NCBI GenBank assembly: GCA_903919925.1
Contig: CAIXKO010000774.1
Coordinates: forward strand, 1 to 46,378
DNA: 46,378 bases
From: an uncultured Bacteroidota bacterium
GTDB lineage: Bacteria > Bacteroidota > Bacteroidia > Bacteroidales > UBA12481
Reading direction: 5' to 3'
Positions 12,657 through 46,173 of the stretch are shown here, one piece after another; position 1 is the first letter of the stretch; the number at the start of each line of letters is the position of its first letter. Below the pieces are notes generated by a model. That model worked only from the letters and a program-made list of their open reading frames with translations. It was not told the origin of the DNA and did not search any database. A program made the translations under genes and the position numbers.

Positions 12657-13687
12657 CTTTTCTGTAAGGATAATAGTTGTTTTGAGAATTCACGGCTATT
12701 CAGGTCCGGGCCAATAGCGATCAGTTCCGAAGGGCCTTTATATCCTTCAATGAACATGAATGATATATCAGTAAATACAGTTTGAATTACCATCGTATTG
12801 ATTTCATCGATACGAATATAGCCTTTTATTCTGTGTAGGGTATGTGATTTTTGAAGGATGAAATCCCTGACCTGTTTTTCGATAAAGAATCCGGTTGATC
12901 GAACCACACTGGAGGAGAGGGAAGGGCGGGTGTCTGGGTTGGGGAATAGTGTACCGGGCGATGAAATTGGATGCCCCTGGTGAGTGAGAAGTCCGGTTGG
13001 CTGACCATTTAAATCGTTGGAGTCTGGATTCTTTGGATTCGAAATCCGGAACTTAATTCCCAACAATTTGTCTATTAAACTTTCATCCCCTAAATCCAAC
13101 TGATCGGTGGACCCAAATTTAGTTTCAACGATCTTAGCAAATGGGTTGAATTCAAGAATCTTATCTCGTATTCCTGAAGTGTCGGAGACCAGATCGGTTT
13201 TGTTGATCCAAACGATATCGGCTATTCTGATTTGATGAAGTACGCGGGATACAGAGTTTATAACCCTATGAAAATTAACTGCATCAACCAAACACCAGGA
13301 CCCAGCGAGATATATTTTATCGGAAAGTTCTGGTGCCTGAAGCACTTGGCCAAGTGATATGGGATCAGCCAAACCGGTGGCTTCCAAAAGAATCAGATCG
13401 GGCTTGTGTTGGTCAATAAATGGAGCCAGGCGAGTAAGAAAATCACCTAGAAGACATGCGCAAAAAACGCTTCCGTTGTTGATTTCCAGTAGCTCAAATG
13501 GTTTGTTTGATTGTTTAAGAGTAATACCATCAACATTTCCTGGAGCAAATTCGTTTTGGACTATTGCCAAGCGAATGTGTTCGGAATATTTCCGGACCAA
13601 GTCTAATAAAAGGGATGTTTTCCCACTGCCGAGGAAGCCGGTTACCAGTACAAAAGGTACTTTTTTCAGATGATTTCCTTGATCCAT
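12653..13687 (-). CDS. CobW/G3E-family GTPase
   Basis: This is a P-loop GTPase of the CobW/COG0523 metallochaperone family. Walker A GFLGSGKTS is at residues 17-25, the switch region has the family VQNEFAPGNVDG, and the metal-binding motif is reduced to FCACLL with Cys76 and Cys78. NKTDL, the guanine-specificity motif, lies near 162. The C-terminal CobW_C-like domain covers about 235-344 and includes a low-conservation stretch near 215-250. It overlaps the fused methyltransferase upstream by 22 bases and the homocysteine methyltransferase downstream by 4. A role in delivering zinc to the methyltransferases, or in corrinoid maintenance, is inferred from context. It is not a classical cobalt chelatase setting. 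Confidence 0.85.
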   Translation of the reverse strand: MDQGNHLKKVPFVLVTGFLGSGKTSLLLDLVRKYSEHIRLAIVQNEFAPGNVDGITLKQSNKPFELLEINNGSVFCACLLGDFLTRLAPFIDQHKPDLILLEATGLADPISLGQVLQAPELSDKIYLAGSWCLVDAVNFHRVINSVSRVLHQIRIADIVWINKTDLVSDTSGIRDKILEFNPFAKIVETKFGSTDQLDLGDESLIDKLLGIKFRISNPKNPDSNDLNGQPTGLLTHQGHPISSPGTLFPNPDTRPSLSSSVVRSTGFFIEKQVRDFILQKSHTLHRIKGYIRIDEINTMVIQTVFTDISFMFIEGYKGPSELIAIGPDLNSREFSKQLLSLQKR

Positions 13688-15288
13688 TCTTTGATCACAT
13701 CGGTTCCCGGATTGCCTGATTCACTGCGTATTTTGTATTTAACTGTTACCAAAGCGGGTGTTTGCGCAACGCCAAAAGAAAGGATAACTTCCGGGTTTGT
13801 TTCTTCGCGGACTTCAATAGTAACTCCAAGTTCAGCAATAGCTTGACGGGTTTTTTCACGCAGTGGTGCAATTTCTTCAATTGATTTACCAAGAAGGAGT
13901 ATTTCACCATGTTTTACCCGCAGGCGGATTTTCAGCTTTTCATTGATGCGGTTCTGGATAGCACGAATCAGTTCATTTCGTGGCGGGATCTGAGATACGA
14001 AAGTGATTTTGCCATCGATGCAAATAGTTGGAATATTTTTAACAAAGAGGGATGACATAAAGGTAACACCTTCGAGATTTTTTATGGAGTGTTCGCGCCA
14101 TTCAACGAGTCCTTCAAAGTGAGGGGCAACTTGTTTGACTGCTTCAACCATATATTGGCAAGGGGCACAGGATTCAGAATCAAGTGTTATAATATCCACG
14201 ATTACCTGGTCACTTTTACCATACTCATCGAGGTTCATTATTTTGGTTTTCCCAGGTTTGTGCTCCAGAGTGCGAATCACATCCTGCTGGTAGGAATCCC
14301 GGACTACGCGGCTCACTGCCTGAAGGTTTTCTATGGGTGTTTTCATGGGAAGATCGCAACCGGGTGCCAGGATAAACCCTTCATTCCCTGCAATATCCAT
14401 ACAATCCACTGCATTCTGCTGACAATCTTCCGGGGTACCCATTAGCATAACAAGAGTTAGCTGAAGATTACCGCCAAAGCTAATCCCATGATTTCGGCAG
14501 ATATTTCTGACGTAATCGAGTGGAATATTCTCATCGATGGAGATATTATCCGGGCCGGTTTTGCACATGACCTCAATGTTTTGTTGTGCATGGCCGCAAA
14601 CAAAGAAGGAGCTAAGCTTTCCGTTTCTGCGGATATCATCAAAAACAGATTTAACCGGGTGGTGTATGAATTCGGTAAACTGATCGGGACCAATCTGCGA
14701 AGTCATCGGGTCGACTACAGCGATGATATCACAACCAGCATCAAGGTAGTATCTTGACATTGACCTTGTTACTTCAGATGCAAAGTCAAGAATCTTGTGA
14801 ATGGAGGCCGGATCTTCAAACATTTTCATAAATATCTCGGTACCTAACAGATGCAGCCCGAGAGTAAAAGGACCAGTTACCAGTCCATATAGAGCGATAT
14901 CGGGATACATTTCCCTCAACTTTCGTGTAGCATCCAAAACTACAGGGATTCTTCCCTGGGTTGGCGAAAGAGGATGGAGCTGGGCCAGCGTAACATTTCC
15001 AGCGAGAGGGTGAGAAAGAACAGCAGGTGGATTTTCATCGGCCCAGCCAAGCACACAGCCGAGAGCTTCCGCTTCAATCTGAAGATCAAAACAGACAGGT
15101 ATTCCATCGGGTTTATAAAGTTGGATTGCTTGACTGATACCACTGACCATCAAATCGGTGGAATGAAGATAATCATTGGCGTTTTTTCCAATAAGATGGC
15201 CACCATGTACACCAACGAATGGCACCCATGGAATAGTGTCGCAATAACCACCTTTCATTGCGTGTAAAACAAGCTCTTTGCCTTTCAT
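13666..15288 (-). CDS. UroD-fold corrinoid methyltransferase fused to two thioredoxin-like folds
   Basis: Residues 1-340 match the MtaA/CmuA branch of the uroporphyrinogen decarboxylase superfamily, whose members move methyl groups to or from corrinoid proteins. The zinc region reads FFVCGHAQ near 228-235 with Cys231, and the partner Cys311 is in APGCDLPMKTP. The usual HxC pair is altered to FxC with a His two residues later. Residues about 360-450 form a thioredoxin-like domain with a CAPC redox motif at 374-377. Residues about 452-540 form a second such fold, like the small redox-active disulfide proteins, but without cysteines. It lies 2 bases after the other methyltransferase gene. The fusion suggests redox control or reductive upkeep of the corrinoid reaction, which is inference. 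Confidence 0.82.
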   Translation of the reverse strand: MKGKELVLHAMKGGYCDTIPWVPFVGVHGGHLIGKNANDYLHSTDLMVSGISQAIQLYKPDGIPVCFDLQIEAEALGCVLGWADENPPAVLSHPLAGNVTLAQLHPLSPTQGRIPVVLDATRKLREMYPDIALYGLVTGPFTLGLHLLGTEIFMKMFEDPASIHKILDFASEVTRSMSRYYLDAGCDIIAVVDPMTSQIGPDQFTEFIHHPVKSVFDDIRRNGKLSSFFVCGHAQQNIEVMCKTGPDNISIDENIPLDYVRNICRNHGISFGGNLQLTLVMLMGTPEDCQQNAVDCMDIAGNEGFILAPGCDLPMKTPIENLQAVSRVVRDSYQQDVIRTLEHKPGKTKIMNLDEYGKSDQVIVDIITLDSESCAPCQYMVEAVKQVAPHFEGLVEWREHSIKNLEGVTFMSSLFVKNIPTICIDGKITFVSQIPPRNELIRAIQNRINEKLKIRLRVKHGEILLLGKSIEEIAPLREKTRQAIAELGVTIEVREETNPEVILSFGVAQTPALVTVKYKIRSESGNPGTDVIKEWIKEII

Positions 15289-15290
15289 AT

Positions 15291-16364
15291 TCAGATTTGA
15301 GGATATATTTCTCTGGCGGCATTTTTCATTGCCAGAAGGTTTTCGAAAGGGACTTCGGGTTCAACCAGATGAGTTGGACCGATAATAATACCGCCTTTTT
15401 TACCGCAAACCCGGATTCTTTCAAGAGTTATCTCCCTGACTTCTTCTTTAGTTCCAAAAGGCAATAGCTGCTGAGTACCCAGAGTTCCCCAGAAAGATAG
15501 GCGGTCACCATAAATCTCATGTATTCGGTTAAAATCCATGCATTCTGGTTGGATTGGATTGAGGATATCAACCCCACAATCGATTAACCCTTCAATAAAG
15601 GCCGTGGCATCGCCGCAGGAGTGGTAAAACACCAAAATCTGCGGATTAATCTTGCGGGCAGCATCAATTACTTTCTTAAAGCGCGGCTTGATCCATTGTT
15701 CCCATAAATCAACGCTCATCATGGGGCCGCTCTGCATGCCAACATCGTCACCCAGGGAAACTATGTCTACGCCGGCCTGGGTATACAACTGGACCCGTTG
15801 GACAGAATAATCGGTAATGCGGTTGAGCAGTACAGAGGCTTTCTCATCCTCCATCATCATATCCATCAGTAGATCGGGCATTGACCGGATGTACCATGCG
15901 GCTTCCCAAATAGTCATTTGCATGGAACCCATGGCAGCTAAACCCCGTTCATGGAGGTTGTTGACGCGATCGAAGAGCGGTTGATTTTCTTCCCGGCTGA
16001 AAACCGGCATTGGATAGTTTAGTATTTCATCAAGCGATTCACATCCTTGAAGGGGATGGTGCATACGGGTCATGTGATAAGCGGCTTCAGAGCCCTTGGA
16101 GTGACCGACACCAATTACATCGATAATTGTGTCATCGGGAAGGGATTCTCTGTGGTAGAGCAAACGGCCATTAGTATAACCAGGATGCTCAGTGAGTGTC
16201 ACCCATCGGAAATCCACTCCGAACCAGTCGAAGTAATCAATATCGCCAAATTTTTTCTTAAAGTCTTCAACCTGAGAATCACAGAGTAAAACGTCAACAG
16301 GAATCCATTCAAACCCCTGTCGACGGGCCGTACGGATCAGATTTTCACGCGGGGTTATGGGCAT
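15291..16364 (-). CDS. UroD-fold corrinoid-dependent methyltransferase
   Basis: The 357-residue protein belongs to the uroporphyrinogen decarboxylase-like methyltransferases. It is too divergent for heme synthesis, where uroporphyrinogen decarboxylase has a different N-terminal Arg-rich motif. The zinc-type HSCG motif is at residues 248-251 (FYHSCGDAT), and a later region has GPTHLVEPEVP where some relatives carry the third cysteine. The substrate is unknown: methoxy-aromatics, methylamines, betaines or thioethers are all handled by family members. I start at the ATG at 16364. The longer frame to 16373 needs TTG. The stop of the corrinoid gene lies one base before this ATG, so the two are translationally coupled. 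Confidence 0.82.
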   Translation of the reverse strand: MPITPRENLIRTARRQGFEWIPVDVLLCDSQVEDFKKKFGDIDYFDWFGVDFRWVTLTEHPGYTNGRLLYHRESLPDDTIIDVIGVGHSKGSEAAYHMTRMHHPLQGCESLDEILNYPMPVFSREENQPLFDRVNNLHERGLAAMGSMQMTIWEAAWYIRSMPDLLMDMMMEDEKASVLLNRITDYSVQRVQLYTQAGVDIVSLGDDVGMQSGPMMSVDLWEQWIKPRFKKVIDAARKINPQILVFYHSCGDATAFIEGLIDCGVDILNPIQPECMDFNRIHEIYGDRLSFWGTLGTQQLLPFGTKEEVREITLERIRVCGKKGGIIIGPTHLVEPEVPFENLLAMKNAAREIYPQI

Positions 16365-16365
16365 A

Positions 16366-17037
16366 TCACCCAAGTTTATTCAGGAACTCTACTGCTCCCT
16401 GGGGATCTGGAGAATACCAGTCGGCACCGATTCTTTTACGAAAATCATCCGTGACGGGAGCTCCTCCGATAAGAATTTTAGTATCGGGACGCGAAGCTTT
16501 TAACTCGGTTACAATTTTCTCCATGTTCAACATAGTTGTGGTAAGCAGGCAGCTCAGTCCAACAAATGCACCAGGATGCTCATCTACCGCAGTGATAAAT
16601 TTTGCAGCTGGAACATCAATACCCAGATCAACAACCTGCCATCCTGCACCTTCCACGATCATACCCAAGAGGTTTTTTCCGATATCATGAAGGTCGCCCA
16701 TTACGGTACCAATAATAAAAACCCCTTTTCTTTTAACTGCTCCCGACTGAAAATATGGTTTCAGGTGTTTCATTCCGGAACTCATTGCTTTTGCAGCCAT
16801 TAAAACTTCGGGCACAAAAACTTTATTTTCACGGAATTTTACTCCAACAATTTGCATTCCCGGAACAAGGCCCAAACTCAGAACCTGGTCGGCAGGAATT
16901 CCTTCCAGCAATGCCTGAGCGCTAAGCTCATCGGCACCGTCCTGTCCTTTTAGGTCGGGGGGATAAGGGGATGTTTTATTAACTTTACCTCTTTCAACGC
17001 ATTTTGCGATCTTTGCCAGTAATTCTTCAGGATTCAT
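16366..17037 (-). CDS. Corrinoid (cobalamin-binding) methyl-carrier protein
   Basis: The 223-residue protein has the layout of MtbC/MttC/MtgC-type carriers: a helical cap (about 1-100) followed by the Rossmann-like B12 domain. DLHDIGKN at residues 115-122 supplies the lower cobalt ligand His117, and the later GLSCLLTTTM and GGAPV motifs complete the B12 site. It is the first gene of the reverse operon, so it is likely the hub that passes methyl groups between the two UroD-fold enzymes and the homocysteine methyltransferase. No RamA-like reductive activator is adjacent. A 48-base gap separates it from the divergent nitroreductase start, leaving little room for a riboswitch. Confidence 0.9.
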   Translation of the reverse strand: MNPEELLAKIAKCVERGKVNKTSPYPPDLKGQDGADELSAQALLEGIPADQVLSLGLVPGMQIVGVKFRENKVFVPEVLMAAKAMSSGMKHLKPYFQSGAVKRKGVFIIGTVMGDLHDIGKNLLGMIVEGAGWQVVDLGIDVPAAKFITAVDEHPGAFVGLSCLLTTTMLNMEKIVTELKASRPDTKILIGGAPVTDDFRKRIGADWYSPDPQGAVEFLNKLG

Positions 17038-29834: not shown

Positions 29835-30416
29835 TTAATTTTTTAACAATAATTCGATTCCAGTATTCGCCATCATATTTGCTACGATCCCAACACGGGG
29901 AGCCAAAGGAGGCATTTCAGGTGAAATCTCAGTAGACTCATCACCGCAGATGTAAAGATTGCCGCTCGATCGCAAATGAAGTGTGTGGCAATTCCCGAAT
30001 CCTGCCATGCCTGATCCGATGATCAATGGTCTCAGAGGCCAAGTGGTCAGTGCAGATTCAATAATCATCACCTTTTGATCAGCCCGGTCAAAAGCTTCAA
30101 AAAGAACATCTACGTCTGAAAAAAGTTCAGGGATATTGTCGGAATTTAAGGTAATTTGATGAATATCGATTGTTAAAAATGGGTTTATTCTCAATAGATT
30201 TGCTTTAAGAGCATCAACTTTTGGCTGACCAATCTGGTCGCGAAAATAGAATTGCCGGTTCAGGTTTGATTCATCCACCAGGTCGAAATCGCAGATTACC
30301 AAGCGACCAATACCTACCCGCACTAATGCAGCTGCGCAATTGGATCCAAGTCCACCAGCTCCGGCTATTCCGGCGCTCATTGTTTTAAGTTTAGCGTTTA
30401 TAGCAACCCAGTTCAT
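29835..30416 (-). CDS. ThiF/HesA/MoeB-family adenylyltransferase
   Basis: The 193-residue E1-like protein should adenylate the C-terminal Gly-Gly of a ThiS/MoaD-type carrier. It has the nucleotide loop GIAGAGGLGSN (about residues 16-26), the DFDLVDESNLNRQFYF motif near 40-55 with the Asp and Arg that bind ATP, and FDRADQK near 108. The CxxC zinc pair of larger family members is absent, and the protein is some 50 residues shorter, as in ThiF-like proteins from anaerobes. It overlaps the DUF364 gene by 4 bases, and the ThiS-like carrier is one gene downstream. Confidence 0.85.
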   Translation of the reverse strand: MNWVAINAKLKTMSAGIAGAGGLGSNCAAALVRVGIGRLVICDFDLVDESNLNRQFYFRDQIGQPKVDALKANLLRINPFLTIDIHQITLNSDNIPELFSDVDVLFEAFDRADQKVMIIESALTTWPLRPLIIGSGMAGFGNCHTLHLRSSGNLYICGDESTEISPEMPPLAPRVGIVANMMANTGIELLLKN

Positions 30417-31114
30417 GCATGCAAAGATACTTTTTTGCCCTTTTTGCTAAACGATTGTGTACCTAAACCTTTGCTGATAATTTCCAAGAGATTAAAGTCG
30501 TAGGGTTTGAAAATCATTCCAAATAGCCCGGTGATTCTATTTTGCTCAAAAAGTTTGGTACTGAGCGGTGTTGATGGCCCCAGCAGGTAAATATCCACAT
30601 GAGGCTTTATCATTCCAAGAATCTCCTGAAAAGTTGAATTGGTGAGGGTTGTAGCGGTAATAATCACACAATCAGTAACGTTGAGCGATTCATTCAATTG
30701 TGTGATCGGAGTAAGATCTGGATAATCCCGTCCCTGATCAAAGGCGAGCAATGGTAATCCGTATTTCCTGAATTTTTCTACCAGTGGCGGAAAATATCCG
30801 ACCATGACCGTGTTTTTTTTTATCGTAAAATCAACCTGATCAAAAATATCACCTGTGCCGAAATTTACATCTGGAGGATAGTTTATGTGGGAATTAGCGT
30901 AGGCAGTAACCAGTACCCGGTGGTCGATGCGCTTCAGATCAGGTTTTACCAGCTGGAGGGGGTCTATTTCAATCGGAATGTTAAGTGTTGAGCAAACTCC
31001 GATTTGCCCATTAGCCAGCATCACTGCGAAGTAAGCATCACCGCAGGCGGTAGCCAGGATTTTTTCCGGATCAAAAGGGAAACTATCGAACAGAACCGAA
31101 ACAGGATCTTCCAT
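30413..31114 (-). CDS. DUF364 (putative heavy-metal chelation) protein
   Basis: The 233-residue protein looks like the DUF4213/DUF364 family: an N-terminal CGDAYFAVMLANGQIGVC unit and a C-terminal Rossmann-like domain with VMVGYFPPLVEKFRKYG near 108, DCVIITATTLTNSTFQEIL near 150, and LLGPSTPLS near 178. The family is linked to metal chelation or metal-centred cofactor chemistry but has no firm reaction. It is first in the reverse operon with ThiF- and ThiS-like genes and diverges from the tungsten oxidoreductase across a 152-base region. A role in handling tungstate or its pterin is inferred. Confidence 0.72.
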   Translation of the reverse strand: MEDPVSVLFDSFPFDPEKILATACGDAYFAVMLANGQIGVCSTLNIPIEIDPLQLVKPDLKRIDHRVLVTAYANSHINYPPDVNFGTGDIFDQVDFTIKKNTVMVGYFPPLVEKFRKYGLPLLAFDQGRDYPDLTPITQLNESLNVTDCVIITATTLTNSTFQEILGMIKPHVDIYLLGPSTPLSTKLFEQNRITGLFGMIFKPYDFNLLEIISKGLGTQSFSKKGKKVSLHA

Positions 31115-31266: not shown

Positions 31267-33423
31267 ATGAATATCAAAGAAATGCTCGGTCAACATAAGC
31301 TACTTGCCGAATTCAAATACAGTGTGACCCCTTTGGACAAAGGGTATACGGATAAGGTGCTTCATCTGAATCTTTCAGACAATACTTTTCTGATCAAGGA
31401 TATACCGCTCTTGATGAAGGAGAAATTTATCGGAGGAAAGGGCTATGGGTTAAAACTCCTTTGGGATGCTACCAACCCGGATACAAAATGGGATGATCCC
31501 GAAAACGAAATAGTTATCTCATCGGGACCGATTGCCGGGATCACGCAATATTCCGGAACAGGCAAGTCATTAGTTGTAACGATTTCACCAGCGAGTAATG
31601 CTGCCACCGATAGCAACGCAGGTGGATATTTTGGCCCGTTTATTAAATTTTCCGGATTCGATGCTATCGAACTACAGGGAAAATCGAAAAGTGATGTTAT
31701 CGTAATAATTGACGGAACCACGGGGAGTATCAGAATAGAGGAGGCACCAGCCGAGCCGTTGGATAGTCACTTGCTCAGTGAAATTCTAACAGAAATGTAT
31801 GCTGATAGCGAAGAGAGCAAGCACAATGTTTCGGTAATTTCCACTGGAATGGCAGCGGAGCATTCATGGCTGGGCATGTTGAATTTTAGTTTTTGGGACA
31901 AGAAAAAGGGACGAATTCGCCTTAAACAAGCTGGTAGGGGAGGAATAGGAGCGGTTTTACGCAATAAAAAAGTTAAAGCGCTGGTTTGCAAGATTCCGGG
32001 AGTTAAAGGAAATCTCAATAATGTGGTAGATCTTCCTGCAATAACGGAGAGGGGTAAGAGATTTAATACAGAAATCAGGGAACTGGATGACAAGCAGTGT
32101 GAAATGAGGACCAAGGGAACTGCTCATCTCATGGAAATCATGAATGATTATGATTTGTTACCCACAATGAATTATAAGTATGGCTCACATAAAGATGCCT
32201 ATCTGATTAATTCAGAGGTTTGGAAGGCTCGCTTTCAGCAAGGAACACCTGACGGATGCTGGATTGGCTGCAATATGGGTTGTGCAAAAGCAGTTAATCA
32301 CTACATCGTAAAAACAGGTCCATACAAAGGTGAAGATGTTTTGGTTGATGGTCCTGAATATGAGAATGCAGCTGGATTGGGTTCGAATTGTGGGATTTTT
32401 GATCCTGACTATATCATTGAGTGTAATTTCTATTGCGATACTTATGGAATGGATACCATAAGCTGGGCCACAAACATGGCTTTTGTCATGGAATGTTATG
32501 AGGCGGGTATTCTAAATAAGGAGCGGACGGGAGGAATTGAACTAAATTTTGGGAATACCGAAGGTGCAATAGAATTGTTGCACCGTGTGGCACGTGGTGA
32601 AGGGTTTGGGCTGATTGCAGGTAAAGGGATCCGGAAAATGAAAGAGATTTTTGCCCATGAAGGGTGGGGAGATCCGGGTTTTATGAATGATATTGGCATG
32701 GAAAATAAAGGATTGGAGTATTCGGAATACGTATCGAAGGAGTCGTTGGCTCAGCAAGGAGGTTTTGCAATGACCAACAAAGGACCGCAGCATGATGAAG
32801 CGTGGTTGATATTTATGGATATGGTTAATAACCAAATTCCTACATTTGAAAAAAAGGCAGAAGCGCTTCATTATTTTCCGATGTTCCGGACTTGGTTCGG
32901 TTTAGTTGGGCTATGTAAGTTACCTTGGAACGATGTTGAGCCTGCTAACAATGCAGAAACCGATGAACCCGCCAAAGTACCTGAACATGTTGATAATTAT
33001 GTTACCATTTATAAGGCGGTAACTGGGAGAGAGTTTGACAAGAAGCGGTTGATTGAGGATTCAGAACGAGTTTATAACTTCCAGAGAGTATTTAATTTGC
33101 GCCGGGGATATGGAGTACGAAAGCATGATGCTCAGCCTTTCCGCGCTGCGGGTCCGGTTACGATTGAGGAGTATGAGAGCAGGGCAGAGAGGTACGATAA
33201 GCAACTCAAAGAACAGGTTGGATTTGATCCCGAGGGTAAAACCTCTGAAGAAAAGCAAAAGGCATTAAGGGCTTATCGCGAAGGACGTTATGAGCAGTTG
33301 CTGGATGCTGTATACAAACGCAGGGGTTGGAATTCCAATGGTGTTCCAACACTGGAGCATTTGAAGTCGATTGGGATGGATTTGCCTGAAGTGATTGAGG
33401 TGGTAATGCCTTACCAGGCTTAG
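31267..33423 (+). CDS. aor: Tungsten-type aldehyde:ferredoxin oxidoreductase
   Basis: It oxidises aldehydes to acids with ferredoxin, or the reverse, using a bis-pterin tungsten centre and one [4Fe-4S] cluster. The 718-residue protein has the N-terminal pterin-binding domain with GGKGYGLKLL near 56 and the AGRGGIGAVLRNKKVKAL signature near 222-239. Cluster cysteines 331, 335 and 339 are in GCWIGCNMGC, and a later Cys is in LVGLCKLPW. GPEYENAAGLGSNCGIF near 365 also fits. It is about 100 residues longer than the archaeal enzyme, as in the bacterial branch. The C terminus carries a charged extension (about 640-718). The substrate is not readable. The neighbouring sulfur-transfer, DUF364 and tungstate uptake genes support tungsten over molybdenum. 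Confidence 0.92.
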   Translation: MNIKEMLGQHKLLAEFKYSVTPLDKGYTDKVLHLNLSDNTFLIKDIPLLMKEKFIGGKGYGLKLLWDATNPDTKWDDPENEIVISSGPIAGITQYSGTGKSLVVTISPASNAATDSNAGGYFGPFIKFSGFDAIELQGKSKSDVIVIIDGTTGSIRIEEAPAEPLDSHLLSEILTEMYADSEESKHNVSVISTGMAAEHSWLGMLNFSFWDKKKGRIRLKQAGRGGIGAVLRNKKVKALVCKIPGVKGNLNNVVDLPAITERGKRFNTEIRELDDKQCEMRTKGTAHLMEIMNDYDLLPTMNYKYGSHKDAYLINSEVWKARFQQGTPDGCWIGCNMGCAKAVNHYIVKTGPYKGEDVLVDGPEYENAAGLGSNCGIFDPDYIIECNFYCDTYGMDTISWATNMAFVMECYEAGILNKERTGGIELNFGNTEGAIELLHRVARGEGFGLIAGKGIRKMKEIFAHEGWGDPGFMNDIGMENKGLEYSEYVSKESLAQQGGFAMTNKGPQHDEAWLIFMDMVNNQIPTFEKKAEALHYFPMFRTWFGLVGLCKLPWNDVEPANNAETDEPAKVPEHVDNYVTIYKAVTGREFDKKRLIEDSERVYNFQRVFNLRRGYGVRKHDAQPFRAAGPVTIEEYESRAERYDKQLKEQVGFDPEGKTSEEKQKALRAYREGRYEQLLDAVYKRRGWNSNGVPTLEHLKSIGMDLPEVIEVVMPYQA

Positions 33424-37666: not shown

Positions 37667-38611
37667 ATGGGCTTTTTAGCTTTGGTTATTATCCTTTTTT
37701 CGGGATGGGCATGTAACCACTCTGTTAAGCCTGAAGCAACACAGAATCTTGTTTTATCGGTTTTTCATGCCGGTAGCCTCTCGGTACCCATGAAAAATAT
37801 ATCTGACGCTTTCGAAAAGGAAAATCCCGGAGTTAAAGTCCAACTGGAAGCAGCTGGAAGCCTTGCATGCGTGAGGAAAATCACTGAGTTGGGCCAAGTT
37901 TGTGATGTTATCGCTTTAGCTGATTACAATTTAATTGATGACTTGCTGATTCCAAACTATGCAAAGTGGAATGTTCTTTTCGCAACCAATGAACTATGTC
38001 TGGTTTATACTGATAAATCGAAAAAAGCGGACCTGATCAATATAAATACCTGGTTTGAAATCCTTATGGATCCCGGAATCCGCTATGGCCGGAGTGATCC
38101 CAATGCTGATCCATGCGGGTACCGAACCGTTTTGGCATTAACCTTGCTCAACCGTTGTTATCCCGGCAGGTCAGATTGTTTGAAACTTCTGGAAAAGGAT
38201 ACGCGGTATATCAGGGGTAAAGAAACCGACCTCAATGCTTTACTCGAAAGTCAGACCATTGACTATATGTTCAATTACCGGTCAGTCGCTGTTCAGCATA
38301 ATTTTAAATATCTGAGACTTCCCGATTCCATCAACCTCAGTAATCCAATGCTGAATTCGTGGTATTCAACATCTCAGGTTGAAGTTAGGGGAACGAGTCC
38401 TGGTTCTGTGGTTTCTCAAAAAGGGGCATCCATATTGTATGGAGTGACAATACCTTTAAAAGCGGCAAACCCAAAGCTTGCTGAAAAATTCGTCAACTTT
38501 ATCACGAACCCTGGAAAAGGAAGGCGGATCCTTGAGCAATCAGGTCAAAATGCCATTGACCCCAAATATTCAGCAAAAAGTGAGAGCATTACCAATAGGC
38601 TATCCTTATGA
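37667..38611 (+). CDS. wtpA: Tungstate/molybdate-binding lipoprotein of an ABC importer (WtpA type)
   Basis: The 314-residue lipoprotein captures tungstate or molybdate in the periplasm. The WtpA signature VFHAGSLSVPM follows the signal, and AAGSLACVRKITELG, FATNELCLVYTDKSK and the RSDPNADPCGYRTVLAL motif match the archaeal/bacterial WtpA-ModA group. I start at the ATG at 37667, which gives a lipoprotein leader ending GWAC with Cys16. The open frame to 37571 would run into the FkbM gene and hide the leader. The lipobox residue at -3 is Gly, slightly unusual. The permease and ATPase lie 3.5 kb downstream, separated by the receptor and a lipoprotein gene. Confidence 0.88.
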   Translation: MGFLALVIILFSGWACNHSVKPEATQNLVLSVFHAGSLSVPMKNISDAFEKENPGVKVQLEAAGSLACVRKITELGQVCDVIALADYNLIDDLLIPNYAKWNVLFATNELCLVYTDKSKKADLININTWFEILMDPGIRYGRSDPNADPCGYRTVLALTLLNRCYPGRSDCLKLLEKDTRYIRGKETDLNALLESQTIDYMFNYRSVAVQHNFKYLRLPDSINLSNPMLNSWYSTSQVEVRGTSPGSVVSQKGASILYGVTIPLKAANPKLAEKFVNFITNPGKGRRILEQSGQNAIDPKYSAKSESITNRLSL

Positions 38612-38656
38612 GACACTTTATTTTGAAACCCTGACATTTGCCAGTTTTTTTTTCGA

Positions 38657-38682
38657 TCGATATGCATTGTTTTGCCTATCGA
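38657..38682. promoter_or_regulatory. Inverted repeat TCGATA-N14-TATCGA with the shared CGATATGCAT word
   Basis: Between the binding-protein stop and the receptor ATG, TCGATA (38657-38662) and TATCGA (38677-38682) form an inverted repeat. The left arm continues as CGATATGCAT, identical to 31163-31172 upstream of the oxidoreductase. A TTAATTTG at 38688-38695 is a weak -7 candidate directly after it. Confidence 0.35.
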
Positions 38683-38700
38683 AAACTTTAATTTGTAAAT

Positions 38701-41001
38701 ATGTTAAGAAATTCAGTCTTAAGTTGTTTTATGTTTTTACTTATTCCTGTAATATTAATGGGCCAGGTTACAGTACGAGGACGTGTTACTGATGCACAAA
38801 CTGGCGATGTCCTTGCAGGTGCAAATATTCAGAGTGTTACAACCGGTCAAGGAGTAAGCTCTGATACGGAAGGCAAGTTTCAATTGGATCTTCCTGATTC
38901 AAAAGTTCAGATCAGGGTGACTTATTTAGGTTATTCGACGGAATTGAAATGGATAAATACTCATAAAAGGGATCAGTTTTTCGAGATTTTAATGACACCA
39001 ACAGCCATCAGTACTTCGGCAGTTTTAGTTACCGCTACAAAAACCAGGAAGCGTATTGCTGAGATACCTGGCAGAACGGAATGGCTGTCATCCAAACAAT
39101 TGGAAGCCATACCAATGGCCCAAGCTGATGATTTTTTACGTACCATTCCAGGAATTCAGGTCAGCCGCGAGCATGGTTTGTTAGATCACAGCAGTACTGT
39201 TAGCATGCGCGGATTAGGAGGGGATCAGCAGGGAAGGTACCTGGTTCTACTTGACGGCGTGCCCATGAACAAGGCCGATGGTGGATCGGTCAACTGGAAC
39301 AGTATAAATAGTATTGAAATCAGTCAGATTGAAGTGGCAAAGGGGCCCGGGTCATCGCTTTACGGCGGAAATGCAATGGGAGGTGTTATCAACTACATCC
39401 GCAAAACCCCGGTACGCCCATTAGAAGGCTCAGGGCAGGTTGAATATGGCAGCATGAACACTATGAGAGGGAAGTTTACCGCTGGAGGGAATCCCAAACT
39501 TGGCAATAAAGGGTTTTATTGGAACATCCAGGGCTTTGGATCCAAAAGCGACGGTTATAACCAAACTCCTATAGAGGCCAGGGATTCGACCACGATTGCC
39601 GGTTCCATGAAAGAATGGGGTGGAGGGGCCAGATTTGGATACAGGATCAATAATCACCATAAAATCGAGATAAATAGTGGATATTGGAGGGATCGCAGGG
39701 GATCAGGAACAAAAATTCTCGCCGAAACAGGCACCTATTTTTCCCATGCGGTATTGGATAAATCAATCAAATACACAGGTAATGTAAGTAAAGCCGCCTG
39801 GTCAGTAATTGCTTACCATACTGGCGAAGATTATTCCAGACTGAATGAGTCAATCAAGGCAACCGGCAATTCCTTTGTATATAGTTCATATTCTGTTACT
39901 TCCAACAGGAATGATATGGGGCTTCAGCTTCACACTGACTACAATTCAGGAAGAAACCTGGTTTCATTCGGTGCCGAATTGAAAGAGGGTTCTGTATTTG
40001 GACAGGATATTTATACAACTTCCACTGATACGGTAACCAACAAGGGCAAAATGCGTAATGTTGCGCTCTATATGCAGGATCAGGTTTCGCTGATTAGTGA
40101 GCATCTTGTTTTAGTTGCAGGTATCCGGTGGGATGCGTCGACTTTTTACGATGGTGGTTTTTACATTTCGAGTCCAACTTCAGCAACCAGTATTCTCAGT
40201 AAGCTTCAGAATCTGGAGTTAGGTAGCAACAATTGGTCGGAATTCAGTCCGAAATTAGCTTTAAAATATACCACCAGTTCGGGATTCTCGGGTTATCTAT
40301 CTTATGGACATGGTTTTCGCCCATCGATACTTGATGATATGTGTCGTTCCGGGTTTATACGGGGCGGCTTTAAACGAGCTAATCCCTACCTGGGACCGGA
40401 GAATCTCAATAGCTTTGAAACCGGAGGAGATCTGATGATCGGTAAAAGGACTAAGCTCTCCGTAAGTGGATATTATTCCATGGGTAAAGATTTTATTTAC
40501 CTGGTGAGCTCAGGAGATTCCATTTTGCAGGGAACAAAAAAGAAACCGCTTATTGAGGCTCGAAACATCTCAGGTGTGCGGATTATGGGAATAGAATCTT
40601 CCTTGAATATGGACTTAGGAAAAAGCACAACCGGGTATGTTCAGTACACCTATACACACTCGCAAATTACTGATTATTTGCCTTTGACAGGGCTTGCCAA
40701 CCTCAAAGGGAAGCATCTCATTTATGTACCTAATCACCAGATATCTGCAGGACTAATCTGGAGAAACAGATGGTTGAGCACGAGTGTTCAATGTTCCTGG
40801 TTGAGTGAGCAATGGATGGATGATGTTAATACGGTATCCATTCCGGGCTATTTAAAAGTTGACGCCCGTATCTGGACCGATTTAGGCAACTTCAGGATAT
40901 ATATTAATGGTCAAAACCTCAATAATGTGGTTTATCTTGAAGGACATGGAATGCAGTCCATGGGCCGGTATTTGTCATTAGGACTTTCTTATCGTTTTTA
41001 A
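38701..41001 (+). CDS. TonB-dependent outer membrane receptor, candidate oxyanion receptor
   Basis: The 766-residue protein has a signal peptide (about 1-21) and a carboxypeptidase-regulatory-like domain (VTVRGRVTDAQTGDVLAGANI, about 23-100). The plug carries SMRGLGGDQQGRYLVLLDGVP near 155-175 and GPGSSLYGGNAMGGVINYI near 216-234, and a beta-barrel runs to the C-terminal LSLGLSYRF. It is SusC-like only in the first domain, and no SusD partner follows. Its place between the tungstate-binding lipoprotein and the permease suggests that it takes up tungstate, molybdate or a chelate of them across the outer membrane using TonB energy. The ligand is inferred from context only. Siderophore-type ligands remain the alternative. 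Confidence 0.85.
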   Translation: MLRNSVLSCFMFLLIPVILMGQVTVRGRVTDAQTGDVLAGANIQSVTTGQGVSSDTEGKFQLDLPDSKVQIRVTYLGYSTELKWINTHKRDQFFEILMTPTAISTSAVLVTATKTRKRIAEIPGRTEWLSSKQLEAIPMAQADDFLRTIPGIQVSREHGLLDHSSTVSMRGLGGDQQGRYLVLLDGVPMNKADGGSVNWNSINSIEISQIEVAKGPGSSLYGGNAMGGVINYIRKTPVRPLEGSGQVEYGSMNTMRGKFTAGGNPKLGNKGFYWNIQGFGSKSDGYNQTPIEARDSTTIAGSMKEWGGGARFGYRINNHHKIEINSGYWRDRRGSGTKILAETGTYFSHAVLDKSIKYTGNVSKAAWSVIAYHTGEDYSRLNESIKATGNSFVYSSYSVTSNRNDMGLQLHTDYNSGRNLVSFGAELKEGSVFGQDIYTTSTDTVTNKGKMRNVALYMQDQVSLISEHLVLVAGIRWDASTFYDGGFYISSPTSATSILSKLQNLELGSNNWSEFSPKLALKYTTSSGFSGYLSYGHGFRPSILDDMCRSGFIRGGFKRANPYLGPENLNSFETGGDLMIGKRTKLSVSGYYSMGKDFIYLVSSGDSILQGTKKKPLIEARNISGVRIMGIESSLNMDLGKSTTGYVQYTYTHSQITDYLPLTGLANLKGKHLIYVPNHQISAGLIWRNRWLSTSVQCSWLSEQWMDDVNTVSIPGYLKVDARIWTDLGNFRIYINGQNLNNVVYLEGHGMQSMGRYLSLGLSYRF

Positions 41002-41012
41002 TATTTAAAACA

Positions 41013-42074
41013 ATGAAAATTAGACTATTAAGTTTTTTGATGGTGATAGGTGTCCTGACTTCATGCAACCCTTCACAACCTCCGGTTAAAGCTTTGGATC
41101 AGCCGATTGCAGTTTATGACTCAACTGATCGTACGAATGATTTTTATGATAATGAGCCTATTGTGGATCTCCCGGGTTCAGATGAAATTGAAATCAGTGG
41201 AGAAGTTGCAGAAAATCAAAGTGTTAAGCTTTCTGAACTTCCGGTTAGAAGTCTGATTGTTAAGGAGACCAGAATTGAAAACGGGGAGATTGCCTTTACA
41301 GGAGCTTATCGCTATGATGGAGTATCGTTGTATGATATTCTGAACCGGGTAAAAGTGGTCAAGAAAAATGCGAAGGAGTTTAACCCCATAATCGATCAGT
41401 ATGCAGTTGTTTACAATGCAGCCGGGGATTCGGTAGTCTTTAGCTGGGGTGAGATATATTACCCTGTTCAGCCTCACCAGATAATTATTGCTACCCACGT
41501 TGTTCGCATTGTCCCGACAAAATCAAAAGACAAATGGCCACTTCCGGCAAGTAAAAAAATCATTGCAGGGACCGACCTGATAACGGAAAGAAACATTATG
41601 GATCCGGTTAAGATTGTGATCCGCAGTCTCAATGTTAATTACAAAGTGGATCGCAACATAAAACTATGGGCTCCGGAATTGATTATTGAAGGAAAGGACA
41701 AACAGTCTGTTAAATTGAAGGAACTTCCATCGGGCCTTTCAGCAGAGGAGTTTGATCACGTGTTTTATGGACGAGGCATGGGTATTCATGGAATAACACT
41801 GACAAAGGGAGTCTTTCTGAAGGATCTTTTTGGGGAATCTTTAAAGCCTGATATTAGTTTAATAAGGAGAGGACTTTTTGTAATTACGGGTCTTGATGGA
41901 TATCGCTGCTCGGTCACCTATTCAGAGTTGATGAACAGGAACGACAATGCGGAGGTTATCATTCAGAACAGGGGAAACAATGCAGATGGAGGAAGGTTCT
42001 CCTGTTTATTCATGGCCGACTTTTTCTCAGACCGTGCAATAAAATCGATCTCTGAAATACGTTTAGTTCAGTGA
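41013..42074 (+). CDS. Lipoprotein with two degenerate sulfite-oxidase-like pterin-binding folds
   Basis: The 353-residue lipoprotein (lipobox LTSC, Cys18) contains two similar halves, about residues 58-190 and 200-353. Each follows the molybdopterin-binding oxidoreductase (SUOX) pattern: VKLSELP...TGAYRYDGVSLYDILNRV in the first, and VKLKELP...GIHGITLTKGVFLKDL with VITGLDGYRCSVTYSELM in the second. The metal-binding catalytic Cys of sulfite oxidase is not evident. It may be a periplasmic binding or chaperone protein for the metal or its pterin complex, set between the receptor (11 bases upstream) and the ABC permease. The family assignment is by motif pattern and should be treated as moderate. 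Confidence 0.65.
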   Translation: MKIRLLSFLMVIGVLTSCNPSQPPVKALDQPIAVYDSTDRTNDFYDNEPIVDLPGSDEIEISGEVAENQSVKLSELPVRSLIVKETRIENGEIAFTGAYRYDGVSLYDILNRVKVVKKNAKEFNPIIDQYAVVYNAAGDSVVFSWGEIYYPVQPHQIIIATHVVRIVPTKSKDKWPLPASKKIIAGTDLITERNIMDPVKIVIRSLNVNYKVDRNIKLWAPELIIEGKDKQSVKLKELPSGLSAEEFDHVFYGRGMGIHGITLTKGVFLKDLFGESLKPDISLIRRGLFVITGLDGYRCSVTYSELMNRNDNAEVIIQNRGNNADGGRFSCLFMADFFSDRAIKSISEIRLVQ

Positions 42075-42082
42075 GAATGACG

Positions 42083-42108
42083 GTAGGGACGTACAATTGC
42101 ATCCTCGT
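42083..42108. repeat. Degenerate copy of the GTAGRGACG palindrome
   Basis: GTAGGGACGTACAATTG followed by CATCCTCG resembles the left arm and centre of the family element, while the right arm has decayed. It lies in the gap between the lipoprotein stop and the permease start, inside the presumed operon, so it is probably not an effective terminator here. Confidence 0.4.
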
Positions 42109-42137
42109 ATGATTGCAACATTTTGGGTTTAAGGGAC

Positions 42138-42926
42138 ATGAATCGGTCAGGATTATCATTAGTATTTGCAATTCTCGGAGGGTTGGTGCTTTTGTTTATA
42201 CTTGCGCCTTTAGTGGGTATTTTCTTAAGGACTACTCCAGGTGAATTTTTTGAAACTGTTCAGGACAAGGACATTACAGCAAGTATCCTGTTAACTCTTT
42301 CCATTTCAATGTTCACCACCCTTGTTTTTGCGGTTGGAGCGGTTCCATTGGCTTTTTTGCTTGCACGGAAGAATTTCAGAGGCAGGAGCCTTGTACAGTC
42401 GCTTATCGATTTACCGATTGTGATACCACATTCTGCTGCTGGAATTGCCTTACTGGGTTTGGTATCACGCGATTCAGTGCTTGGGAAAGCAGCTTCGTAC
42501 ATAGGACTGGATTTTGTGGGCCACCCAATTGGTATTGGTATTGCCATGGCATTTGTGAGTGTACCTTTTCTCATTCAGTCGGCCCGTAATGGTTTTGAGA
42601 AGGTGCCGGTAAGGCTGGAGAAAGCCGCAATGAACCTGGGGGCTACGGGTTGGAGAGCCTTTAGGACCATAAGTGTGCCCTTGGCTGGGCGGAGCATAGT
42701 TTCCGGGCTGGTTATGATGTTTTCACGCGGGCTGAGTGAATTCGGAGCGGTTGTAATTATCGCTTATTACCCAATGGTAACTCCTGTATTGATTTGGGAT
42801 CGTTTCAATTCCTTCGGATTAAAGTATGCAAGGCCGGTTGCAGCTGTTTTTATCCTGGTGTGTCTGATTTTCTTTGTCGCATTGCGTTTATTATCAAACA
42901 AGAAAGCAGATGATCAGAATAGATAG
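42138..42926 (+). CDS. wtpB: Tungstate/molybdate ABC transporter permease
   Basis: The 262-residue inner membrane protein has about six hydrophobic segments. The conserved EAA-type loop EKAAMNLGATGWRAFRTISVPLAGRSI (about residues 163-189) contacts the ATPase. DLPIVIPHSAAGIALLGL near 92 and SRGLSEFGAVVII near 196 match ModB/WtpB/TupB permeases. I use the ATG at 42138, since the frame extends to a TTG at 42123. It overlaps the ATPase gene by 17 bases, so the pair is coupled. Whether it belongs to the Wtp, Tup or Mod class is taken from the binding protein. Confidence 0.9.
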   Translation: MNRSGLSLVFAILGGLVLLFILAPLVGIFLRTTPGEFFETVQDKDITASILLTLSISMFTTLVFAVGAVPLAFLLARKNFRGRSLVQSLIDLPIVIPHSAAGIALLGLVSRDSVLGKAASYIGLDFVGHPIGIGIAMAFVSVPFLIQSARNGFEKVPVRLEKAAMNLGATGWRAFRTISVPLAGRSIVSGLVMMFSRGLSEFGAVVIIAYYPMVTPVLIWDRFNSFGLKYARPVAAVFILVCLIFFVALRLLSNKKADDQNR

Positions 42927-43968
42927 AATATTCAAAAGTTTTGGCAGCTTCCAAATCTACGATGTTTCCCTGGAGATAGAGCCGGGGGATTATGTTGTTT
43001 TGCTGGGGGACTCCGGATCAGGGAAGTCTGTATTACTGGAGATTATTGCTGGACTGACACCACCCGATAGTGGCCACATTTTTCTGAATAACAACGACAT
43101 TACTGATCTGCCGATCAGAAGCAGACCTTTTGGAATGGTTTTCCAGGATCTGGCGCTGTTCCCGCATTTAACTGTTAAAAACAATCTGGCTTACCCACTT
43201 AAGGCAAGACATCTCTCAAAAGCTGAGATTAATAGGCGGATAATGGAATTGTCAGAAAATCTGGATATTGCCAACCTGTTGAATCGTTTTCCTAATACGT
43301 TATCGGGGGGTGAAAGGCAAAGGGTGGCACTTGCCCGAACCTTGGCAACGGAACCTGCATGTCTTCTTTTAGATGAACCATTAACCGCCATTGATGCGCA
43401 TATCCGAAAGGAAATCAAATCCATACTTCGGAAATTGAATCGCAATGGACAAACCATCATTCACGTAACGCATGATTATCAGGAAGCTATGAGTTTGGCT
43501 TCCCGAATTGGGATTCTGGAGAATGGTCGTCTGATCCACTTTGGGCAAGCTGTTGAAGTTCTCAAAAATCCGGTAAGCCCCTTTATGGCCAGTTTTACAG
43601 GTATCCGGAATTTTATCCCGGTAACCCTTTCAAGAGATTTGTCGGATGGTTTGGTTAAAGCCTGGACCGAGCAAAACATTCCATTGTTTTTACAAACGGA
43701 AAAAGATCATGGCACGGGATACCTGATGATTCCTGAGGATGCTGTTTTCCTTTCGTTGTTGCCAGTGGCTACTAGTGCTGCAAACCAGTTGAAAGGTGAA
43801 ATTATCGAAATTATTCCAGCACACTATGGCAACGAGGTTGTAATAGATGTTGGCTTTTCATTAGTTGCGTTGCTTACTTCAAGCGGCATTGATCGGTTGT
43901 CCATCAAACCCGGAGATGTGGTTTATGCATGTTTTAAGGCAACGGCAATAAGGTTTATCAAGAAATAG
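42910..43968 (+). CDS. wtpC: Tungstate/molybdate ABC transporter ATPase with TOBE/MOP domain
   Basis: The 352-residue protein powers import. Walker A GDSGSGKS is near residues 33-40, the Q-loop is in FGMVFQDLALFPHL near 74-87, the signature LSGGERQR near 132, Walker B CLLLDEPLTAID near 152, and the H-loop His in HVTHD near 188. The C-terminal region (about 230-352) contains a TOBE/MOP-like domain, with LKGEIIEIIPAHYGNEVVIDV near 290, that can sense bound oxyanion. I use the ATG at 42910, since the longer frame to 42874 lies deep inside the permease gene. No clear terminator follows, although an AT-rich inverted repeat lies at 44050-44068. Confidence 0.92.
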   Translation: MIRIDRIFKSFGSFQIYDVSLEIEPGDYVVLLGDSGSGKSVLLEIIAGLTPPDSGHIFLNNNDITDLPIRSRPFGMVFQDLALFPHLTVKNNLAYPLKARHLSKAEINRRIMELSENLDIANLLNRFPNTLSGGERQRVALARTLATEPACLLLDEPLTAIDAHIRKEIKSILRKLNRNGQTIIHVTHDYQEAMSLASRIGILENGRLIHFGQAVEVLKNPVSPFMASFTGIRNFIPVTLSRDLSDGLVKAWTEQNIPLFLQTEKDHGTGYLMIPEDAVFLSLLPVATSAANQLKGEIIEIIPAHYGNEVVIDVGFSLVALLTSSGIDRLSIKPGDVVYACFKATAIRFIKK

Positions 43969-44097: not shown

Positions 44098-46173
44098 TTG
44101 CTGTATTGTCTGCCTGTTATTGTGCCAAAAATAAATCTTATAGTACCAGAATCGGAACTGCTTAAACCAAGGTGGTGGTTGAGCTTAGATGAGCATTCTC
44201 TGCTATACCTTACTGGATTGAATTATTCTTTACTATTTATATTTTGGTTGACTTGTCTAACTTTTGCGCCTTCGGCATTGGCTTTCGATTCCATGGGATT
44301 GACATCAGAGGGAAAAATATTTTTGGTCAGTAATCCCACGCCAATAACTGTGACTGCTAACCCGGGTCAAACCAAGATTTTTGGTGACATAGATCCTAAA
44401 TTTGAATTTACGGTAGATCCACCAGGCACCTATCCTTTTACAGGAGCGTTAAGCAGAATAGCTGGTGGAACAGTTGGCGTACCTTATCCTATCACTAAAG
44501 GCAATTTATCAGCCGGAGCAAATTACACCATCTCCTTTGTTTCTGCGGATTTTTACATCAAAGCCAAACCCATTACGGTAATAGCAGATTCAGTGGCCAA
44601 ACAATATGGTGATCCCGATCCTGCATTGACTTATTCGTTTAATCCTAAGTTGCTCGCTGGCGATGATTTTTCAGGAGCATTAGAGCGACTACCGGGCGAG
44701 ATGCCAGGGGAATACCCGATCAATTCTGGAAATCTGACCGCCGGGTCCAATTATATTATCACCTTTCTTACTGGGGTTTTTACCATCACAAAAAGCACTA
44801 ATTATCAAATCACGGTGACCGTTGAACCCGGGCAAAGCAAGGTTTACGGGGAACCTGATCCGGTTTTAAGGTATTTTGTCAGTCCTCACCTCTTTCCAGG
44901 AGATACAATTTCCGGCTCCCTTTCCCGTGATCCTGGTGAAAGCACCGGACTTTACAAGATTCGGCAGGGTAGCCTTACTGCCGGGGTGAATTACCAGATT
45001 AGCTTTGTATCAGATGATTTGGTAATTAGTCAGAAACCTATTTTGGTTCGATCATCAGCGAACAAGAAAATTTATGATGGAACTCGGTCGTGTTCAGTTG
45101 TTCCAACTATTTCACCAGGTTTGGTGGAAGGTGATATTGGCGGATTCATCCAGGAATACAAGGATAAAAATGCAGGAACCGGAAAGACTATAACACCTAA
45201 AGGGCAAGTTAGCAGTCCTAATTCCGGAAATAATTATGAGATAACATTCGAGTCTGTTCATGATGGGATTATTGAACCGCTTTCCATACCGGTAATGGTT
45301 TCGGTTTCTAATAAAGTTTACGATGGAAGTACAACTGCGATCCTGCTAAAGTGTTGGTTAATTGATGTACTGAGCGGAGACAATGTATCAGTTACCGGCG
45401 GAGCAGCAAAATTCATTACCCCTGATACAGGAAATGGAAAATCTGTAGAAGCAACCGGGTTTACTCTTTCAGGGTTAGATTCCTTAAACTATTCGCCAAA
45501 TCACATCCCGGCAATCACCACTGCTGATATCACGCCATTAGGTGTTAACACCACTGTTGAGGTTAATCCGTCATCTTTTACGTCCTTAAGTGAAATTGCA
45601 ACATTTACAGCAATTGTTCATGGAGGTGCTCCTTTGGAAGGCGGACCGCCTGCAGCTCTATCAGCAACCTTTTCTTTTGAAGGCAATTCGATCAGTAATG
45701 CCGCCGGGCAAACTATGATACCACTTGAAGCATCAGGACCCGACCTGGTTGCTAAACTAAGTGTCCCTCTTCAAAATTTAACGATTACCGGTTCGATGGT
45801 TTCCGGCACTAAAGAGATAGTTTCAACTATCAATTCCAAAAATTCGAATTACCTGATCGAACCGGGTTTTTCAGGTACATATTTTGAATATTCAACTGGA
45901 TTTGAAATCAAGGTTTACCCCAATCCAGCAAACCCATTAAGCGGAACTGGTATCAACTTTCAGTTGTCCTTGCGGCATGGTTCAAACGTTAAAATCGAAC
46001 TATATGAGCCAAGTGGAAAGCAGATAGGTGAATTATTCAACGAGTTTTTGGAGGGAGGGGCTTCCAAGACAATTGTTTACAATCATTCGCTGAGACAGGG
46101 GGTTTACCCCTATCGGATCATAACAGACAACCAGGTTGTTAAGGGTAAAATCGTAGTAATCCGGGTATATTAG
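44098..46173 (+). CDS. Secreted MBG/YDG-repeat protein with T9SS sorting domain
   Basis: The frame encodes up to 691 residues. A hydrophobic segment SLLFIFWLTCLTFAPSALA (about 43-61) looks like a signal peptide. Three MBG repeats follow (about 83-160, 161-238, 241-318), each with a KxxG(D/E)xDP motif and a late AG(A/S/V)NYxI(S/T)F strand. Next come two YDG repeats with KIYDGT and KVYDGS (about 319-398, 399-482), an Ig-like region, and a C-terminal T9SS type A domain from about 605 with YPNPANPL and GVYPYRI. It is probably a surface adhesin or stalk. The start is uncertain: there is no ATG before the signal, only TTG at 44098 or 44218 and a GTG near 44122. The frame opens after a stop at 44077-44079. 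A 5' truncation is possible. Confidence 0.75.
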   Translation: MLYCLPVIVPKINLIVPESELLKPRWWLSLDEHSLLYLTGLNYSLLFIFWLTCLTFAPSALAFDSMGLTSEGKIFLVSNPTPITVTANPGQTKIFGDIDPKFEFTVDPPGTYPFTGALSRIAGGTVGVPYPITKGNLSAGANYTISFVSADFYIKAKPITVIADSVAKQYGDPDPALTYSFNPKLLAGDDFSGALERLPGEMPGEYPINSGNLTAGSNYIITFLTGVFTITKSTNYQITVTVEPGQSKVYGEPDPVLRYFVSPHLFPGDTISGSLSRDPGESTGLYKIRQGSLTAGVNYQISFVSDDLVISQKPILVRSSANKKIYDGTRSCSVVPTISPGLVEGDIGGFIQEYKDKNAGTGKTITPKGQVSSPNSGNNYEITFESVHDGIIEPLSIPVMVSVSNKVYDGSTTAILLKCWLIDVLSGDNVSVTGGAAKFITPDTGNGKSVEATGFTLSGLDSLNYSPNHIPAITTADITPLGVNTTVEVNPSSFTSLSEIATFTAIVHGGAPLEGGPPAALSATFSFEGNSISNAAGQTMIPLEASGPDLVAKLSVPLQNLTITGSMVSGTKEIVSTINSKNSNYLIEPGFSGTYFEYSTGFEIKVYPNPANPLSGTGINFQLSLRHGSNVKIELYEPSGKQIGELFNEFLEGGASKTIVYNHSLRQGVYPYRIITDNQVVKGKIVVIRVY

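Follow-up and report, generated by a model that had tools for sequence, protein, structure and literature searches.

A TonB-dependent receptor and a SUOX-like lipoprotein in a Wtp-type tungstate importer operon of an uncultured Bacteroidota bacterium

The 46,378-nt contig CAIXKO010000774.1 (hereafter the window, meaning this whole stretch of DNA) is one contig of the metagenome-assembled genome of an uncultured Bacteroidota bacterium of the order Bacteroidales (7.0 Mb; completeness 99.8%, contamination 5.4%). At 37667-43968 on the plus strand it carries a block of five intact, co-directional genes encoding WtpA, the tungstate/molybdate-binding lipoprotein of an ATP-binding cassette (ABC) importer (37667..38611), a TonB-dependent receptor (TBDT; 38701..41001), a lipoprotein with two domains of predicted SUOX/PruR type (hereafter LIPO; 41013..42074), the ABC permease WtpB (42123..42926) and the ABC ATPase WtpC (42907..43968). 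Successive spacers of 89, 11 and 48 nt, followed by a 20-nt overlap of WtpB and WtpC, are typical of an operon. The block probably serves to acquire tungsten, and possibly molybdenum too, across the cell envelope and to feed a nearby aldehyde:ferredoxin oxidoreductase (AOR), and the simplest reading of its receptor is a dedicated but optional outer-membrane step within this uptake route. An earlier note on this DNA had proposed active outer-membrane uptake of tungstate, molybdate or a chelate, with a pterin-fold lipoprotein as a possible periplasmic carrier; the gene order and families that it gave proved correct, and its interpretation as a whole is partly supported.

Linkage of the block to tungsten genes

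WtpA scores 287.7 bits against TIGR03730, above the curated cut-off of 242.75, and aligns with the solved archaeal WtpA/ModA proteins 2onk, 3k6u and 3cfz (E about 1e-63), including the oxyanion-site motifs HAGSL, EAAGS, DPCGYR and ET/ME-L. The start at 37667 given by the earlier note holds, the ATG there leading into a lipoprotein-type signal peptide with a lipobox. The best NCBIfam matches of the other two importer components are NF040839 (tungstate_WtpB) at 262 bits, under the equivalog cut-off of 340, and NF040840 (tungstate_WtpC) at 335.7 bits, under 440, the ATPase also matching Pfam ABC_tran and TOBE; judged by these matches, WtpB and WtpC are Wtp-type proteins of the right families but not strict equivalogs. 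The AOR gene (31267..33423, plus strand), a member of a tungsten-enzyme family, lies upstream of the block, exceeds the cut-offs of PF01314 and PF02730, and is the sole PF01314 match detected in the host genome; its product is the likely consumer of the metal. Three PF00384 molybdopterin-oxidoreductase matches were also found in this genome, so that use of molybdenum or tungsten beyond AOR is possible in the host.

The same association recurs across the order, as counted in 295 genomes. WtpA is present in 53 of the 55 genomes encoding LIPO versus 41 of the 240 others, AOR in 52/55 versus 61/240, and 91 of the 94 WtpA genomes carry AOR. The 36 genomes with close receptors, defined by a cut of 835 bits or more that was set post hoc, hold AOR in 35, WtpA in 34, LIPO in 34 and a ModE-type helix-turn-helix (HTH) protein in 32 cases, and the looser set of 68 genomes, defined at 1e-150, holds WtpA in 46 and AOR in 58. 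Receptor homologues, whose tungstate genes the earlier note had proposed in advance as the point to check, thus mostly occur in genomes that encode WtpA, and there is strong support for linking the receptor family with tungsten/molybdenum genes; the recurrence of the gene order in divergent lineages, described below, is independent of the 835-bit cut. As to the metal, the co-occurrence with AOR favours tungsten, and the ModE-type HTH and molybdenum cofactor (Moco) genes fit either.

LIPO, a predicted tandem SUOX-fold lipoprotein

The LIPO sequence found no match in Pfam (PF00174 included), NCBIfam, PDB sequences or plasmids, and a profile comparison with E. coli MsrP returned a short, low-probability alignment (20%, E 0.001); a search of 149 genomes from the order yielded no PF00174 protein that could serve as a local SUOX yardstick. 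Because sequence and profile comparisons gave weak matches or none, the fold assignment rests on structure. An AlphaFold2 model built with 11 relatives (pLDDT 82) matches the sulfite-oxidase molybdenum domain of solved structures with Z up to 12.7, and both halves match PruR (residues 56-204 to 7rkb, Z 10.6; residues 221-352 to 7kom, Z 11.3), the next unrelated folds scoring below Z 6. According to this model both halves adopt the SUOX fold, in agreement with the double SUOX-fold lipoprotein named in the earlier note.

SUOX enzymes require a cysteine that ligates molybdenum. Across 76 LIPO relatives this residue is absent and the lipobox cysteine is the sole conserved one, so that LIPO is unlikely to be a SUOX-type enzyme; Lys84, Glu85, Asp128, Trp145, Asp295, Tyr297, Asp340 and Arg341 show little or no variation. 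LIPO therefore shares the domain fold of the sulfite oxidase and MsrP molybdoenzymes but differs from them in having no ligating cysteine, no PF00174 match and two SUOX domains in tandem. PruR of Proteobacteria, a periplasmic pterin binder that signals to DcpA, is likewise an extracytoplasmic SUOX-fold protein without this cysteine, and its pocket has been described as too small to hold Moco (PMC13259868). LIPO differs from PruR in its two domains, in being a lipoprotein, in its linkage to metal importers and in its neighbours, which are transport genes with no DcpA-type partner among them.

A scan of 84,980 species genomes yielded 243 LIPO-encoding stretches, of which the best 80 were kept for analysis of gene contexts within five genes of LIPO, some contigs being short. 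LIPO lies beside WtpA/B in 34 of these 80 loci (12 of the 34 also with a TBDT), beside a TBDT without Wtp in 12, beside glycerate kinase in 11, fused to an asparaginase-type hydrolase in nine, beside TupA in three and in other or truncated contexts in 11. The three TupA loci are Elusimicrobia records (L064, L078 and L087) in which LIPO precedes the TupA-type binding protein, followed in L064 and L078 by TupB, an ATPase, MoeA, MoaA and MoaC; the partner importer of LIPO can thus change between Wtp and TupABC. MoeA, MoaA and MoaC genes follow in several LIPO loci.

Outer-membrane barrels of the Alginate_exp family occupy the position between LIPO and WtpB in two loci (L092:5518-6759 and L106:4855-6096, the latter additionally with a TBDT), which fits the idea of outer-membrane passage as an add-on to the wtp operon. 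In the fusions (L038, L040, L041, L044, L045, L050, L055, L056 and L057) a LIPO-like double domain precedes an asparaginase-type (Ntn hydrolase) domain, named by reading the sequence rather than by family search, in proteins of ~642 aa whose conserved setting bears no relation to tungsten genes. At the glycerate kinase loci (L067, L073, L082, L084, L088, L100, L104, L108, L112 and others) LIPO belongs to what looks like an operon, its genes reading as glycerate kinase, GntP-like permeases, GFO/IDH/MocA and zinc-type dehydrogenases.

The fold and these contexts bear on two other explanations of the block. If the system scavenged a cofactor, the receptor would import a pterin or metal-pterin such as shed molybdenum or tungsten cofactor, LIPO would bind the pterin in its two PruR-like domains and Wtp would take any freed metal. 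The matches of both halves to a periplasmic pterin binder at Z 10-11, the shared lack of the ligating cysteine and the Moco-synthesis genes near several loci speak for this scheme, but LIPO often accompanies the importer alone, which takes up oxyanions, hosts with MoeA/MoaA/MoaC synthesise their own Moco, the PruR pocket is described as too small for Moco, and pterin binding by LIPO is putative; we regard pterin scavenging as unlikely. That LIPO is no carrier but a periplasmic sensor or assembly factor, comparable to PruR acting on DcpA, with the receptor and Wtp as independent neighbours, appears quite improbable: the closest small fold is indeed that of a signalling protein and LIPO does occur in other gene contexts, but neither the block nor the recurrent neighbour families include a DcpA-like or sensor-kinase gene, and LIPO accompanies two non-orthologous importers.

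The receptor, its relatives and its partners

The full-length receptor contains CarbopepD_reg_2, Plug (PF07715, 82 bits) and 22-strand-type barrel (PF00593, 129 bits) domains, each above its Pfam cut-off, and its tree, gene contexts and co-occurrence place it in a Bacteroidales family linked to tungsten/molybdenum genes. It falls below the cut-offs of the named NCBIfam receptor models, the best being the heme model TIGR01785 (171 versus 317 bits) and TonB-B12 scoring 86 versus 600, and the heme and siderophore receptors that come closest to it in sequence among NCBIfam models and solved structures are all remote. These relatives lend something to the explanation that the receptor shares only its regulation with Wtp and imports another need of tungsten users, such as heme or complexed iron for the Fe-S cluster of AOR. 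Across many examined loci, however, the linkage is to Wtp, ModE-type HTH, Moco and AOR genes and not to iron genes, and together with the low score against the heme model this leaves iron or heme import very unlikely.

A tree of 49 related receptors groups the receptor of the window with those of L048 and L053 (support 99/96), its closest full-length relatives at ~42% identity, from other Bacteroidota. Both loci have the order ModE-WtpA-TBDT-LIPO-WtpB-WtpC, identical to that of the host block with a ModE-type gene in front, although in L053 two frames share the LIPO sequence. Between TBDT and LIPO in L048 lies a NapH-like Fe-S membrane protein, at first sight of interest but seen at this locus alone. 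Among 60 relatives of the host, LIPO was found in 13. Three members of the genus (G005, G006 and G007) have AOR, a rhamnosidase, WtpA, LIPO and WtpB in host order without the TBDT, with WtpC also present where the contig extends far enough and with the LIPO match split into two frames in G005, and G002 shows TBDT-LIPO-WtpB-WtpC with the receptor cut by the contig end. The block whose conservation the earlier note had proposed to test is retained in full order in L048 and L053 and lacks its receptor in the three congeners, LIPO being the steadier part: LIPO is a steady partner of the importer and the receptor an optional add-on. That an unrelated receptor gene entered a wtp operon by chance or in a single lineage, as the receptor-free congener operons and the 27 TBDT matches of the host genome might suggest, is rejected, being contradicted by the recurrence of the neighbourhood in many genomes, by the same order with ~42% identical receptors in other lineages and by the order-wide co-occurrence of the receptor family with the same genes.

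In most other receptor loci a lipoprotein of family F5 precedes the TBDT, often together with F29, which bears a type IX secretion tail, and of the 42 close receptor loci in the order, 36 have a predicted surface lipoprotein next to the receptor. When 20 receptor loci unlinked to LIPO, or of lower-scoring relatives, were examined, at least six adjoined ModE-type HTH, Moco-synthesis (MoeA/MoaA/MoaC) or AOR genes and nearly all adjoined F5. Folded as a side test, F5 matches the DUF4466 protein 4ei0 (E 7e-11), a match that pointed to no ligand. In F5 and the related F44 the lipidated cysteine is followed by acidic residues, resembling the Bacteroidetes surface-export signal C-X-K-(D/E)2 (PMC5080379), whereas LIPO and WtpA as a rule have no such signal; at the sequence level this suggests a surface lipoprotein, the receptor and a periplasmic lipoprotein in line. 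No F5-type surface lipoprotein was detected in the window or, at E 1e-25, in the host genome. In many loci (L126, L127, L128, L129, L130, L132, L133 and L032) the ModE-type gene is separated from F5-TBDT by genes for two further proteins, f65, which weakly resembles TiaS / methanogenesis marker 11, and f66, which is small and has no family.

The F5-F29-TBDT arrangement follows a logic similar to that of BtuB-BtuG(-BtuH) of Bacteroides in the same phylum, a vitamin B12 TBDT with a surface lipoprotein and an ABC importer serving a scarce micronutrient (PMC6143338, PMC10404256). The loci studied here differ in their ModE-type, Wtp, Moco and AOR context and in the DUF4466-like nature of F5, and the host block differs further in having no surface lipoprotein partner.

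A proposed route for tungsten uptake

From the genes, folds and repeated linkage observed here we infer a substrate, a direction and a role for each step. The TBDT, driven by TonB/ExbBD, would bring a tungsten or molybdenum species (tungstate, molybdate or a complex) across the outer membrane; on the periplasmic side LIPO might receive or buffer this species, or free the metal from a chelator, the weakest step of the scheme; and WtpA would then take the oxyanion, to be pumped by WtpBC into the cytoplasm for cofactor synthesis. With such a route, tungsten (or molybdenum) would be pumped across the outer membrane of these cells, with no reliance on leakage through pores. A bolder reading, less likely than not, would make this receptor family the first TonB system for a metal that forms oxyanions: the TBDT, usually with a surface DUF4466-like lipoprotein, often with a type IX-exported protein, and with LIPO, would actively gather a complex of tungsten or molybdenum, possibly a metallophore or a metal-pterin originating from other cells.

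Several observations weigh against the proposed route. The operon stands without a receptor in the three congeners, and no receptor-family member was found at 1e-150 in G007, which has WtpA, LIPO and AOR, so that the receptor is not essential for tungsten use. No TBDT lies within five genes in 22 of the 34 Wtp-linked LIPO loci (some contigs being short), and the glycerate kinase contexts and asparaginase-type fusions mean that LIPO is not confined to tungsten. The Fisher p values for the co-occurring pairs, 1e-12 or smaller, are uncorrected for shared ancestry, and most of the members used to build the receptor profile were LIPO-linked. The proposal rests on gene, fold and linkage data, and transport and binding are predictions from these.

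Tungsten and molybdenum exist in solution as oxyanions. Each part of the block belongs to a known fold or family, and the combination and the predicted substrate are new. The three importer proteins correspond to archaeal-type WtpABC (other such importers being ModABC and TupABC), with WtpA over its cut-off and WtpB and WtpC best matched to their families, but known importers hold a binding protein, a permease and an ATPase, whereas the host block inserts a TBDT and LIPO between WtpA and WtpB. In accounts of enteric bacteria, molybdate diffuses through porins (PMC8264917). Pseudomonas aeruginosa reportedly acquires molybdate via secreted ModA and the outer-membrane protein IcmP (cited in PMC11734730); this is also dedicated outer-membrane help for molybdate, but it relies on a type VI-secreted binding protein and not on a TonB receptor inside an importer operon. 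Nickel TonB receptors show that metals other than iron are served by this class (PMC3400609), although they handle cations. No published TBDT for tungstate or molybdate was found in the open-access literature, most subscription journals lying outside this coverage, and neither metal appears in a 2024 review of TBDT substrates.

The carriers form a large group of mostly uncultured Bacteroidales, in which the receptor and LIPO are built into, or travel with, a tungstate importer and a tungsten enzyme that it probably feeds. If the proposed route is correct, TonB transport would extend to a new class of metals, and receptors and lipoproteins so far uncharacterised would gain a predicted function; a receptor family tracking tungsten genes across the order would imply that this metal is scarce enough, or sufficiently complexed, to merit TonB energy.

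Neighbouring genes in the window

Divergent from AOR, a DUF364 protein described as 'putative heavy-metal chelation' (30413..31114, minus strand; PF04016, 88 bits) is AOR-adjacent in three congeners, and the adjoining ThiF-family protein (29835..30416, minus strand; PF00899, 121 bits) is AOR-adjacent in G005, G006 and several related loci; both are syntenic companions of the block. An Rfam search of the window gave no match, hence no Moco/tungsten riboswitch at gathering level, and a promoter scan returned fewer matches than in shuffled sequence. Downstream of WtpC and in the same direction, 44098-46173 encodes an MBG_2/YDG-repeat protein whose type IX secretion tail is weak; it is probably unrelated to the block and is not among the recurrent neighbours of related loci. 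Elsewhere in the window, 7952-11046 encodes a split lantibiotic dehydratase pair (Lant_dehydr_N and Lant_dehydr_C), and the minus-strand genes at 11766-17037 resemble a corrinoid methyltransfer cluster, with a homocysteine methyltransferase, a CobW GTPase, a thioredoxin-domain URO-D protein, another URO-D-like protein and a B12-binding protein.

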